Shown here in pieces: positions 35,345 to 55,415 of a stretch of 64,000 bases of DNA. A program made the translations under genes and the position numbers. A model generated the notes under the pieces. The model worked only from the letters and a program-made list of their open reading frames with translations. It did not search any database and was not told the DNA's origin. The stretch is taken from positions 496,001-560,000 of the forward strand of contig BLSF01000007.1 of assembly GCA_012862575.1 (NCBI GenBank), given 5' to 3'. How positions within the stretch are numbered: position 1 is the first letter of the stretch; each line of letters opens with the position of its first letter. The DNA comes from Parietichytrium sp. I65-24A (lineage: Eukaryota; Sar; Bigyra; Thraustochytrida; Thraustochytriidae).

Positions 35345-36919
35345 TCATTCGTCTAGCCTCTCCAAAAGCTTGGAAATGCTGTCGCTAAGGTTGTCCGTGT
35401 TCGTGAAGTCGATGTAGAGCTCCCCAGCGAGTTTTAGCTGGAGCGGCCCAATCCAGGAGTTGGGGTTAAGCATTTCAGGCTCCATCACGCAAGGAATCAT
35501 GTTTCTAACACCACGGACTCTGCAAGCCGCAAGGAACTCATCGCGGCAAAAGTCGTCCGCTTCGGATGTCAGTTTGTGCATGTAGCGTTCTGTCACAAAC
35601 ACAATCACTTTGCGGGACTGCTCGATACCCTCCGTGATCTGCATCACCATGTTGCCGGAGAGGCGTTCCTCGTCGAACCAGGTGACCATGCCCCGATCGA
35701 TCAAAGCAGCGTTCACGTGGCTTACAATCTGGTGATTGTCGCCATTGACGCCCCAGTCATGCGTCAGAAAAGCGTCATACGTGTATGCCCTGTCGTTGGT
35801 CTTCAAGTTGCGTCTAAAGAACCCACTCACACCACTCGAAATTCGCTTTGCCAGGGATCTGCGCCGCGGAGCCTCCCTTTCCGACCCACTGGACTCGTGG
35901 TCACTTTCCTCGTTCGCGAGGCCCTTGGAACTTGCAAATTTTTTGAGAAGCGCGCGGCGCTTCATCAGTGCAGCGACTCCAAGCGTTTGCAGGTCGTCGT
36001 CGCTGAGATCCTCGCACTGCTCGAGCTCGAGCACCTCGTTCTCGAAGAATGCAATAATCGTCTGACGATTGATGCTGAGTTGCTGCAAAACCTTCGAAAC
36101 CTCGTTTTTCTTGAGGTACATGATGAAGCTCGCGATGTCGTCGCGATCGCAGGCCCGGGCGATCGATAGGGCTTTAGCGCCTCGAGAGTTTTCCACGTTG
36201 ATGTCTGCTCCCCCCGCCCAAAGGGCCTTGACGATTGCCAAGGAGCGCTCGCGAATATGGTCGGCGTTCTCCTCAGTGCGGCATGCCAACATCAGCGCCG
36301 TGTCGCCGTTCTCGTTCCGTAGGTCTGGCTCTGCGCCCTTCTGAATGAGGGCATTCACGACCTCGCCTTGCCCCTTGCGACACGCATACATGAGTGCTGA
36401 CCATCCGCTGAGGTCTTGACTGTCTAGCACTGCGTCTTTCTGGATCAAAAGCTGCGCACACTCAACCGCATCGTTTTTGCAAGCCAGCATGAGGGCCGTA
36501 AGACCATCGCGATTGGTGAGGTTCAAGTCGCATCCTTCTTTGATGAGCAGCAGGGTCGTTTCCGCCTGGCCGTGCACGACGGAAAACATGAGCGCAGTCA
36601 TCATCTCGTTGTTTTGAATGTCCAGCTCGGCTCCGACCTGCGTCAGCATTTGAGTAATCTCTGGTTGGTCGTAGCGGGCTGCAATCATGAGAGCCGTCCA
36701 GCTGGCTTCGTTCTGGTGGTTCAGATGCGCGCCATTTTGAATCAGCCACTGGGCGATCCGCGGCTGAGGCCCGCTCGCAGGTGAGACGGCCCATGTCAGT
36801 GGCGAGTCACCGACGCTGTTGCAAATCTCATTCAACTTCTGTCGCTTCTTCGCCACTACCCTCTGGACTCCGTCCAGGTCGCCTGCCTTGATCAGCTCGA
36901 ATATACTTGTGCTCACCAT
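35345..36919 (-). CDS. Ankyrin-SAM-TIR protein, possible NADase
   Basis: 524 residues, single exon, ATG at 36919. Residues ~8-270 are about seven ankyrin repeats (TALMIAAR, TALMFSVV, TALMLACK, SALMYACR). Residues ~272-330 look like a SAM domain (CEDLSDDDLQTLGVAALMKRRALLKKF). Next comes an acidic/basic linker with RRRSLAKR. Residues ~379-505 are a TIR domain beginning YDAFLTHDW. WFDEERL (414-420) aligns with FIDVEKL of SARM1, which places E418 at the catalytic glutamate of TIR NADases. SARM1 has ARM-SAM-TIR order; here ankyrin repeats replace ARM. By analogy the SAM would oligomerise, the TIR would cut NAD+, and the ankyrin part would hold it off or sense a signal. Enzyme activity is inference. 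Confidence 0.9.
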   Translation of the reverse strand: MVSTSIFELIKAGDLDGVQRVVAKKRQKLNEICNSVGDSPLTWAVSPASGPQPRIAQWLIQNGAHLNHQNEASWTALMIAARYDQPEITQMLTQVGAELDIQNNEMMTALMFSVVHGQAETTLLLIKEGCDLNLTNRDGLTALMLACKNDAVECAQLLIQKDAVLDSQDLSGWSALMYACRKGQGEVVNALIQKGAEPDLRNENGDTALMLACRTEENADHIRERSLAIVKALWAGGADINVENSRGAKALSIARACDRDDIASFIMYLKKNEVSKVLQQLSINRQTIIAFFENEVLELEQCEDLSDDDLQTLGVAALMKRRALLKKFASSKGLANEESDHESSGSEREAPRRRSLAKRISSGVSGFFRRNLKTNDRAYTYDAFLTHDWGVNGDNHQIVSHVNAALIDRGMVTWFDEERLSGNMVMQITEGIEQSRKVIVFVTERYMHKLTSEADDFCRDEFLAACRVRGVRNMIPCVMEPEMLNPNSWIGPLQLKLAGELYIDFTNTDNLSDSISKLLERLDE

Positions 36920-38254
36920 CTTGCCCGATGCTTTGTTCGCCTGTGCTCTTCCAAACGCCTGTCTTTGGACGCGGAGTTTGGGTTTTGATTTTGATACATG
37001 AATTCATTCTCCATCATTCTCGGCTTCGGCTCCGGCTCCGGCTCTGTCTTTTCTCTAATGAGCATACACCCATGAAAAGCTTTCCTACTAGCTAGCGAGC
37101 TTCATTGCTCGTTATCAATACACTTTGACCCGCTTCAGCCTAGGTACTACCGGTACCGGTACAGACTTTTCACAGAAAAGAACTTTTTTACAGAATTTAG
37201 AACAGATCGATCTCCATTCTTTTACTGATCAACTTAGTTTAGAATGAAGATTGCTGACAGCGCTCGACAGTGTGAGTCAAGATTTGGGTTGCTCAAAGAC
37301 GCTAGCTAGGCTAGCTGACTTTGTAGTTAGTAGAGCTACAGAGGCGGTGTGCACCCATGCTAGGTCAAAAAATAGTCAGTGCTGCGACGAACACCCTACT
37401 GTCAAAGCGTGTTGATTTTGATAAAGAAAATTGTCTGTGAGCACACTCAACTCCCCGTCAATCATCATGGAGTAAGCAGAGAGAAATTGTCTTGCTTTTC
37501 GTACTTTTCGTCTATTATTTGCATAGGACGTTTTTGCTTTCAATGCTCTGTTCTCCGAAATTCAGAAGATGTCTCCAAATTTCCCATTTTTTTCCATACC
37601 GGGACCTCATATTACTCTTCGAGGGATAGAGGCCACAGCTAGCTAAAACCGGGACCTCATATTACTCTTCGAGGGATAGAGGCCACAGCTAGCTAAAATG
37701 CTCTCGATACTGCTATAGCTTGCGGTGAAAAGTACTACACGTAGTCAACATCACCTTCACTCGCTCAAGCGTGGTATCAAGGGGTCGTCGACAAGCGAGA
37801 CCATCACAACAAACAATCGCGACCCGCGCAAATACCCGCGCAACCGGGAAACAAAACACTTTACAGTCTCGACTGTTTTACATCGTTGCTAACAGCCTTT
37901 CCCTTCCTGTCTATGCTACCAGAGCAACTTTGAAATGCACCGCGAACAACGCAATTAACGCAATTGCGCACTTGCGCTGCAGAGACAACAGAGACGCAGT
38001 TGACAACTGTACCTACCCTTTCAAAGAGCCCAGCATTCTAGGTCTAGCGATTACAGAGCGACTACAGTCCTAAAGTGGCGTTCGTAATCTTGAATTTGAT
38101 TATTCAATTTTGAGCATCAAGTGTGAGGCATCAAAAAGAGTCTCACTGTGCTGTTGTAATCTCCTCTCACAGACAGCTATGTATGTTTTGAAAGATGTTT
38201 TGATTCGCAGAATCACACCGCTAGCGAAGTGTCATTTGCGGCTAGGGAGTAAAA
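36920..38254. other. Spacer, 1.3 kb
   Basis: Contains a TACCGGTACCGGTACAG palindromic stretch near 37148-37164 and a perfect 50-bp tandem duplication (separate entry). No gene recognised. Confidence 0.55.
37599..37698. repeat. Perfect 50-bp tandem duplication
   Basis: Two identical 50-base units, first at 37599-37648 and second at 37649-37698, each ending GCTAGCTAAAA. Perfect identity in a spacer implies a recent event (or an assembly artefact). Confidence 0.95.
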
Positions 38255-52633: not shown

Positions 52634-53847
52634 CTCTCGCTCGCAGCCTCCGTCCCCGCCGACTCGCCACTGTATCTGTATCTGTGTCTATATCTGCGTC
52701 TGTCTCTGTGTCTGTGTCTGACAGCAAACTTTCAACTCTTTCAACTCTTTCAACTCTTTCAACGCTTTCTGCTTGTCGTATGCACTGCAGCACTGTCCGC
52801 ACTCGCGAGAACCCCGCACGAGGCACTGAGGAACCCACAATCTGCAACGGCCTTCACAACACCAGCCAAGTGTGGCCCACTCGTGGGTACCTTGCTTCCG
52901 TTCGAGGACACTTTGCTGAGCCACTGAGTACTCGAGTACCCGGAACTCACAACCAACTTGAGTTACTACTTGGTGAAGCTAACCCGGACGCTTAGCGAGC
53001 ATTTAGCGATTCTAGTATCTTTCGGAGCGGTTCTTGAGTTCTTTCGGTTCTTTAGGTGGGTTCTGCATGGTTCTGCAGAATTTGAAGCGGGAGGGAGTGT
53101 GAGTGTGGGCTACCTTTGACAGATTTTCGTTGCTCTGGTTCCTAGGGATAGGTGGGCACGTCCGCCAACGCTTCGGGAAGTGGTTGTTGTTGACATGACG
53201 GGATATGACGGGTCCCAACGCCTCCTATTCCAAGGCGACAGGTGAAGACAGAATGGTTACCAACAAACAAGCTTTTCTGGCACGGCCAGGTGTCTTGTTT
53301 GGGAGAACTTCGTCAGTAAGTTTTCCTGTTTCCTGTTTCCTAACAGCAGTCTTCATTGAAAGAAAAGCTCTTACTCTACTCGCCGTGACCAATCTGGAGA
53401 GACTCTGTGAACGAACATTGATTCTCAGTCAACCCTACTCCTTACGAAGTAACTTACTCTCTACCTTCCCTGCCTCCTCATTCCAGCGCTCGCCAGCTAG
53501 GCACCCTGATAGTACCTCTTATACCGCCAGAGATATTTCACCGCTTTCCATGCCCCTCTCAGAGGCTCGCAAGACGCTTCCCGCAGCTAGCCAGCTAGCT
53601 AGCGCTCCCCTCAAGAACCCTCCCACGGCTCCCACAGCTCCCTCCTTCCTTCTCCCCCTCCCCACCAGCGTCACTCCGTCCCTCCGTCCCTCCGTCCTCG
53701 GTCCTTGCAAAGCCGAAAGCCTTTCAGGCGCGAAAGGCTGTCCAGTCTTGTCCTGTCCTGTCCGGTGACGCAAGCCAGCAGAAGCTAACAAGCAAGCAAA
53801 GAAAAGCTAGCAAGGAAGCAAGGAGGCAAGGAGGCAAGGAGGCAAGC
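52634..53847. other. Divergent spacer, 1.2 kb
   Basis: Between the XPG start and TMEM65-GAF. It has a TCTGTGTC-type repeat at 52671-52722 and a TTTCAACTC 9-mer in four tandem units at 52730-52765. An ATG frame (53205-53768) is repeat-biased and resembles nothing known. An AGGAGGCA repeat at ~53810-53846 abuts the next start codon. Confidence 0.5.
52730..52765. repeat. TTTCAACTC tandem 9-mer, four units
   Basis: Three identical units and a fourth with one change, read directly. Confidence 0.95.
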
Positions 53848-55415
53848 ATGCTCGCGTGGCGGCGCGCGGCGGGCGGCATAGGGCGGCGCGCGGGGTGCGC
53901 AGGTGCAGGTGTGGGGCCGCGGGGCGTGCGGGGCTCGAGGGGGATGTGCGAGCTGGAGCGGGTGTGCGCGCTTGGAGCGGCGGATGCGGGCGCGCTGGAC
54001 CGCGTGAGACGGTCGCTGAGCGCGCGGACTCTGGAGAAGGTGCGCGCGGCAGTGACGGCGGAGGAGGGCGCGGTGGGGCAGGAGGTGCTGCAGCCCACAA
54101 GAAGACAACTGGGGCTGGTGATGCTGGCGCCAATGCCACTGTTCGTGTGCTTTGGCATCATCGACAACGCAGGTGAGTTGGCCGGGAGTGTCTAGATGAG
54201 GATGGGTGCGGAAATCGTGCGTGCGTGCGTGGGAAGTGTAGGAATGGCGGATTGTTGGGCCGCGCGTGGGTGGGTCGGTGTATATGGGGTGAAGATGGGC
54301 GAGTTTCGCGAGAGGCTCGAACAGTGTTTCGAATGACTGACAAAGCGGTATGTGTGTTTGGTGTGTTTTTGGTCTTGTGTGCGCCGGACGCCGCAGTGAT
54401 GATTGTGGCGGGCGAGTATTTCGATTATACGCTGGGTGTGGCCTTTAACATCTCCACTATGGCTGCCGCGAGCTTGGGGAATCTGGTTAGCGACGTGATG
54501 GGACTCGCGGCTGGAGGCGCGGTGGAGAGCTGGTTCGACCGCATGGGCATTGGCAGGGACCCGGGGCTAACTCGGGCGCAGGAGGGCATGGCGATCGTCA
54601 GAAAGGTCAGGTTTCTCGGCAATGCTATTGGTGTTTCAATTGGCTGTCTCATTGGGATGTTCCCGCTGCTTTTCATGGATTTTGACAAAATCGCTCGGCT
54701 CAAAAGACAGTCTCAGATGGTAAGTGTCATTTTTCTTTTCACTGAAAAGACTGGTTTATGGCGAATGGCGAATGGCGCGTGCTGAATGTTTGTTTATTCT
54801 GTTCGCATTTAACGTTTGATGCCTATGCAGGATGAGCTCTTTGAAACTGTGACCGAGTACGTCGGGCAGGTGATGCATGCAGAAAACGCAACACTGTACA
54901 TTGTAGACGGGGAGAAGCAAGAGATGTGGACGAAGGCGTCCAGCGGGCGGAGCAAAATGGAGCGGGTCAAGTTTCCACTTAGCCGAGGTGTCGCTGGCCA
55001 CTGTGCCAGGGATGCACATGTAATCAACACCAGCGATGCAGATGATTTGCAGAGATACGGGTCAAAGTCAAATCTGCTTACGGGCAAACCCAACCAGAGC
55101 GTACTCTGCACGCCAGTCTTTGGCCGGAATGGTGACGTGATCGGTGTTTTGCAAGTCTCCAACCGGAATAACGGGAAACCGTTTAGAGTTCGCGATGAAG
55201 TGGCGCTCACTGCTATGGCTTCGCACATAAGCTGTGCGATGGAGCGCGCGTTTGAAGAAGAGGAAGGGGATCCCAACTCGACTGACAAAAACTCGGTTCT
55301 ACGCGCCCTTCGAGCTAGCTTTGAGCACCATCATCACCACCTGAAATTCGCCACCTCAAGGGCGAAGAGCTCAGGTGGAACCGTGGATCTGGTGGAGAAG
55401 CCCCGGCAAGCGTAG
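53848..55415 (+). CDS. TMEM65-GAF fusion protein, mitochondrial, three exons
   Basis: Join of 53848-54172, 54397-54719 and 54831-55415, giving 410 residues. Introns are 224 bp (GTGAGT...CGCAG) and 111 bp (GTAAGT...TGCAG); both phases fit, and the first junction restores the TMEM65 core DNAVMIVAGEYFD. Residues 1-30 are Arg/Ala/Gly-rich with no acids, a likely mitochondrial presequence. Residues ~88-205 are the TMEM65 domain: helix LVMLAPMPLFVCFGIIDNA, then STMAAASLGNLVSDVMGLAAG, then a third helix AIGVSIGCLIGMFPLLF. Human TMEM65 is an inner-membrane protein linked to mitochondrial Na+/Ca2+ exchange. Residues ~217-360 are a GAF domain (SRGVAGHCARD...VSNRNNGKPFRVRDE) with an NKFDE-like motif. 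The pairing suggests ligand-controlled ion transport (inference). Confidence 0.92.

Follow-up and report, generated by a model that had tools for sequence, protein, structure and literature searches.

A predicted TMEM65-family membrane protein carrying a GAF domain with an altered ligand pocket

Organization of the predicted gene

The window analysed here, a DNA stretch of 64,000 nucleotides, carries a predicted gene at positions 53848-55415 of the plus strand. In our splice model, this gene consists of three exons separated by two canonical introns, all on the plus strand, and encodes 410 residues. Exon 1 (53848..54172) begins at the first ATG of an open frame, which extends upstream to position 53599 without any further Met, and encodes a presequence-like N-terminus followed by the beginning of a TMEM65 domain. 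Intron 1 (54173..54396; 224 bp, GTGAGT..CCGCAG) interrupts this domain at codon 109, and the remainder of the domain is supplied by exon 2 (54397..54719). Intron 2 (54720..54830; 111 bp, GTAAGT..ATGCAG) is in phase 0 and marks the TMEM65/GAF boundary; its retention leaves two in-frame stops. Exon 3 (54831..55415) encodes 194 residues comprising a GAF domain and C-terminal helices, and ends with the stop codon. The original prediction had described one spliced protein of 410 residues, and its start, stop, strand and length were all reproduced by the splice model.

That prediction also held that a full TMEM65 domain is followed by a GAF domain. In a profile search of the 410-residue protein, the two domains exceeded their curated cut-offs, and the matches are not due to chance. 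The TMEM65 match (PF10507) covers residues 99-203 (54142..54680, plus strand, with intron 1 inside) and profile positions 6-109 of 109, at 128.1 bits as compared to a cut-off of 25 (1.7e-37). The GAF match spans residues 215-354 and starts about 11 residues past the TMEM65 domain (GAF_2, 3.2e-14; GAF, 1.2e-13; Pfam PF01590/PF13185).

Elsewhere in the window, a 552-residue ORF on the minus strand (35348-37003) combines numerous ankyrin repeats with a TIR domain at its C-terminus (TIR_2, 2e-11). Scans of the 64,000 nucleotides against Rfam, at gathering scores, and for tRNAs gave no matches.

The TMEM65 part

The predicted protein has the glycine zipper and the three membrane stretches that are features of the TMEM65 family. 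Hydropathy peaks were observed near residues 87-105 and 121-139, the second one having a shoulder at 133-151, and near residues 186-204. The string GVSIGCLIG, read directly in the third hydrophobic stretch, corresponds to a glycine zipper, G187-x3-G191-x3-G195 (54630..54656, plus strand), and such a zipper is described for TMEM65 in the accessible part of PMC13254257. Residues 1-30 contain six Arg and no Asp or Glu, a pattern expected of a mitochondrial presequence; by composition, the N-terminus would thus fit the presequence-like character announced earlier.

According to the accessible part of PMC3994636, animal TMEM65 is an inner-membrane protein whose presequence is cleaved and whose C-terminus, as its authors infer, may face the intermembrane space; the human protein has 240 residues and three putative membrane regions. 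Liposomes containing purified TMEM65 reportedly take up Ca2+ in a Na+-dependent manner (cited in the accessible part of PMC13254257). The predicted protein resembles animal TMEM65 in its full PF10507 domain, its three hydrophobic stretches, its glycine-zipper string and its Arg-rich N-terminus, and differs from it by the extra exon of 194 residues that carries the GAF domain. Comparison of exon 2 with the PDB returned a single match (E 0.2), which was dismissed as chance.

The GAF domain and its relatives

The best PDB sequence match of the GAF domain was CyaB2 (1ykd, 1.4e-24). PDE or cyclase chains made up 17 of the 21 PDB sequence matches at E <= 0.01. The remaining four were the HD-GYP protein 4mcw, a histidine kinase, a phosphotransferase and, by chance, a lipoprotein. 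An AlphaFold2 model of exon 3, built on a 66-row alignment, had a mean pLDDT of 81.6 and a pTM of 0.74. Its top fold matches with Foldseek were 4mcw, CyaB2, PDE10A and PDE2A, and long helices at 120-145 and 153-180 (exon 3 numbering) form its C-terminal end. By sequence and model, the domain is a complete GAF of the PDE/CyaB class. It shares with PDE2A GAF-B and the CyaB2 GAF (1mc0, 1ykd) the fold, the NKFDE positions and some of the pocket. However, Asn replaces both the pocket Asp and the pocket Thr in the window protein, and its GAF is attached to a putative membrane transporter instead of a cyclase or PDE.

Relatives of the domain were collected by a scan of genome_contigs, in which 549 stretches matched and 223 proved to be relatives; among the best 80 of these 223, 60 bacterial sequences were aligned. 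Because the pattern used to choose these rows covers VIGVLQVSNR, conservation is inflated in that segment, which does not include the pocket Asp and Thr. From the same genome, five of the nine GAF places beyond that of the window were aligned, with L008 (the first GAF of L006), L009, L011 and L012 omitted. A GAF scan of viral_contigs matched 32 stretches and yielded 0 relatives.

The window GAF reached 106 bits with a Nitrospirae domain (L026) as compared to 62 bits at best with the five aligned GAFs of its own genome. In the tree, it sits on a long branch and its placement is without support; horizontal transfer is not claimed, since the bacterial scores are higher but the tree placement is unsupported. 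Five high-scoring bacterial ORFs were examined, four of them GAF-SpoIIE and one cNMP_binding-GAF-GAF-PAS-cyclase. Because partner domains vary in this way, the bacterial relatives indicate no single ligand.

The ligand pocket

The GAF domain contains VSNRNNGKPFRVRDE. In the alignment, N327, R328, F334, D338 and E339 (55161..55199, plus strand) occupy the NKFDE positions, with R replacing K as is also seen in 5 of the 60 bacterial rows. The NKFDE motif attributed to this GAF was therefore found with all five positions occupied. Ligand contacts were then considered one by one. Those of PDE2A, which we take to be S424, F438, D439, I458, A459, Y481, D485, T488, T492 and E512, all agree in letter with the 1mc0 sequence at a single constant offset. 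Those of CyaB2 (R291, T293, I308, D356 and N359, from the accessible part of PMC4411481) were mapped manually onto the alignment of the window GAF with the PDB sequences. Residues of the usual kind were observed at T237 (CyaB2 T293), A271, T300 (CyaB2 N359) and Q324, whose position holds Q in 58 of the 60 bacterial rows. By hand mapping, CyaB2 R291 is changed to N235 and I308 to A252. The set of ligand contacts is further broken between 55071 and 55094 (plus strand), where PDE2A D485/CyaB2 D356 aligns with N297 and PDE2A T492 with N304.

Position 297 is D in 55 of the 60 bacterial rows and position 304 is T in 57; all five own-genome rows have D and T, respectively. Overall, 58 of the 65 aligned relatives retain both the pocket Asp and the pocket Thr, and one has lost the two together. 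Among the four own-genome GAFs omitted from the alignment, three retain both residues as judged by eye. The fourth, L012 (G000:C55), is a GAF-PDE that also appears by eye to be without them, so that the window protein is not alone in its pocket drift. In the window GAF, the lid segment ranks second of 66 rows in divergence relative to the core, and it is the lowest-confidence part of the model ahead of the tail (pLDDT block means of 64 and 57).

With the pocket Asp and Thr both changed to Asn, ordinary binding of cAMP or cGMP becomes doubtful, and the case for it is weak. The original prediction associated the NKFDE motif with cyclic-nucleotide binding. The motif is indeed present; however, according to the accessible part of PMC11977230, its residues make no ligand contact, although their mutation impairs binding, and in the window protein two contact positions are altered. 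A pocket lacking ligand-binding residues had been named as grounds for abandoning the prediction, and N297 and N304 half refute its cyclic-nucleotide part. In its full form, that reading has the GAF binding cAMP or cGMP in the ordinary manner and gating the exchanger directly, kinase-free. The occupied NKFDE positions would agree with it, as would the predominance of PDE and cyclase chains among the PDB matches with 1ykd first, the usual residues T237, T300 and Q324, and a genome rich in cyclase and PDE matches; an Asn at 297 could even bond in the stead of Asp. Still, the two residues that relatives so regularly keep together are both replaced here, contacts R291 and I308 of CyaB2 (accessible part of PMC4411481) face N235 and A252, and the lid is strongly diverged and poorly defined in the model. 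We therefore consider this reading unlikely.

The altered pocket could also mean that the GAF is ligand-free and merely dimerises or scaffolds the transporter. PDE2A GAF-A, which is not known to bind a ligand, would be a domain of this sort, and it likewise retains the NK..F..DE text though its lid aligns poorly. Lid divergence in the window protein and the two long terminal helices of the model point in the same direction. Yet T237, A271, T300 and Q324 keep the usual kind of pocket residue, for which a pure dimeriser would have no need, and this makes the ligand-free alternative quite unlikely. A GAF with an altered pocket that still serves as an input module is the reading that we prefer. 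Against it stand the long branch of the GAF and its unsupported place in the tree, which would also fit a decaying domain, and the loss of the same two residues in L012.

The junction between the TMEM65 and GAF parts

According to the original prediction, both introns restore conserved family text. This holds for intron 1, which splits the TMEM65 domain, but it fails for intron 2, across whose junction conserved text is absent. Intron 2 joins residue 216 to residue 217; the TMEM65 match has already stopped at 203, and the GAF match has by then run for two residues. Because the junction carries no family-conserved text, the fusion hangs on one splice, that of intron 2.

With intron 2 retained, the shared frame is closed twice, at 54783-54785 and again at 54810-54812 (the ORFs run over 54177-54785 and over 54813-55415). 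The GTAAGT..CAG pair at intron 2 unites the TMEM65 and GAF frames in phase. Codon scores, trained on five ORFs of the window, were -7.3 in intron 2 and peaked at 17.4 at the start of exon 3; this score is noisy, exon 1 not being separated from its upstream flank and one downstream non-coding window reaching 5.6. From the read-through stop to the first ATG of the GAF frame, the spacer measures 33 bases (54786-54818), which would be too small for the usual boundary between genes. Splicing of intron 2 is likely, and a fusion is the best model. The earlier conclusion that neighbouring genes were not misjoined can thus be kept, although the intron argument offered for it is valid for intron 1 only. 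Two adjacent genes, the first encoding a TMEM65 protein terminating in the intron-2 region and the second a separate GAF protein starting from an ATG within intron 2, are very improbable: the GAF frame does have in-frame ATGs 5′ of exon 3 (MPMQDELFET), almost the entire GAF match lies within exon 3 and no conserved text spans the junction, but the short spacer, the in-phase splice and the fall of the codon scores between the exons argue against them.

A TMEM65 paralogue on another contig (C142) bears on the history of the fused gene. Its frame is open from TMEM65 to the tail, with no intron where the window gene has intron 2, and its chosen splice, one of nine possible joins, falls 1 nucleotide off the intron-1 place. 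Because the paralogue frame is uninterrupted at the intron-2 place, yet splits near the intron-1 place, the comparison suggests that a separate phase-0 exon brought in the GAF or set it off.

A sister TMEM65 gene with EF-hand-like loops

At least two TMEM65 matches were found in the genome (42.5 Mb, 172 contigs). The second one is the C142 paralogue (L001, minus strand); over the compared stretch, it shares 47% identity with the window TMEM65. EF-hand-like loops occur ahead of its TMEM65 domain (DTNADGQVSSEE) and behind it (DTDEDGKVKVQQ), the latter in the same open frame. The tail matched EF-hand_7 at 7.1e-5, below the curated cut-off, and calmodulin at 5.6e-5. The N-terminal loop gave matches to calcium-binding proteins at 1.6e-4 and weaker; a thyroid autoantigen fragment scores equally in the N-terminal region but covers a different part.

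A 2026 paper reports, in its accessible part, an EF-hand in many non-metazoan TMEM65 orthologues (PMC13254257). Like these proteins, and like the C142 paralogue, the window protein bears a sensor-like module on the TMEM65 tail, at an equivalent chain position. The module is EF-hand-like and in one open frame with TMEM65 in the paralogue, whereas it is a GAF on its own phase-0 exon in the window gene. Sensor modules on TMEM65 are already known, and the GAF is the new element.

A candidate sensor slot on a putative mitochondrial exchanger

Overall, we favor, with a probability of about one half, a TMEM65-type exchanger that carries the altered-pocket GAF, as an input module, in a sensor slot on its tail. 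The gene product would be a TMEM65-family protein presumably located in the mitochondrial inner membrane. By homology, its TMEM65 part probably exports Ca2+ against Na+, like the animal protein. If the animal topology holds, the GAF would lie in the intermembrane space, where small cytosolic molecules could reach it. Placed about 11 residues behind the TMEM65 domain, at the tail position held in the paralogue by EF-hand-like text, it would act as the input module: ligand binding, or GAF-GAF dimerisation, may shift the third and last membrane helix and thereby set the exchange rate. Since the two most conserved contact positions are altered, a non-standard ligand, or a cyclic nucleotide bound at reduced affinity, would be more likely than canonical cAMP or cGMP.

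The mitochondrial ion carrier set by a small ligand that was originally proposed fits the domain anatomy and the sister gene, but its cyclic-nucleotide step is weak. The combination of a carrier with a small-ligand module is strengthened by the sister gene, because the latter has EF-hand-like text at the equivalent tail position. We put forward more tentatively that the TMEM65 tail may be a general sensor slot, the two paralogous exporters possibly receiving different inputs: Ca2+ through EF-hand-like loops in one case, a diffusible small molecule through a re-tuned GAF in the other.

If this tentative reading is true, a second messenger or a metabolite would set mitochondrial Ca2+ export directly, with no intermediate kinase. 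To our knowledge, the regulation of TMEM65 is not settled. The accessible part of PMC12874050 sets out a debate on which of TMEM65 and NCLX is the principal exporter. A natural GAF fusion beside an EF-hand-like sister would help to locate the part of TMEM65 that receives regulatory input, and the activity of the fusion protein might be ligand-switchable.

Genome setting and related genes

Exon-level matches in the genome, which are not gene counts, numbered 29 for cyclase families, 16 for PDE families, 3 for the MCU uptake channel and 33 for Na_Ca_ex. An intron-blind search of the 42.5 Mb with a single light-harvesting family, PF00504, gave 0 matches. From this one family, the host, a single-celled eukaryote, is probably non-photosynthetic, and the original prediction's mention of "other algae" finds no support.

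The TMEM65-GAF fusion was observed in a single genome. With a TMEM65 pattern, 42 stretches were fitted in viral_contigs and 58 in genome_contigs, with 0 relatives in either; these collections are viral or bacterial/archaeal, and the null therefore says nothing on rarity among eukaryotes. A literature search over 5.39 million papers, few of them from subscription journals, found no paper pairing TMEM65 with a GAF domain, nor one pairing TMEM65 with a stramenopile; fusions recorded in databases alone may exist.

Several other ORFs of this genome deserve mention. About 46 kb ahead of the window start, a 1344-residue ORF (L106:418-4449, G000:C7) contains WW, cNMP_binding, GAF, PI3K C2, PIK and PI3/PI4-kinase domains and resembles a PI3-kinase that takes two inputs of the cyclic-nucleotide type. 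The GAF of this ORF (row L004) retains the pocket Asp and Thr. A 421-residue ORF (L021:766-2028, G000:C37) shows an EF-hand-like loop, DKDGDGRITSAE, preceding an MCU domain. This loop matched EF-hand_5 at 1e-4, below the curated cut-off, and the ORF looks like a calcium uniporter that possibly has a calcium sensor of its own. Finally, on G000:C41, C31, C83 and C17, cyclase- and PDE-family matches are found a short way apart, in open frames of 1497-2603 residues. Because the matches neighbour each other in frames of equal stated length, they look like cyclase-PDE fusions in a single ORF.
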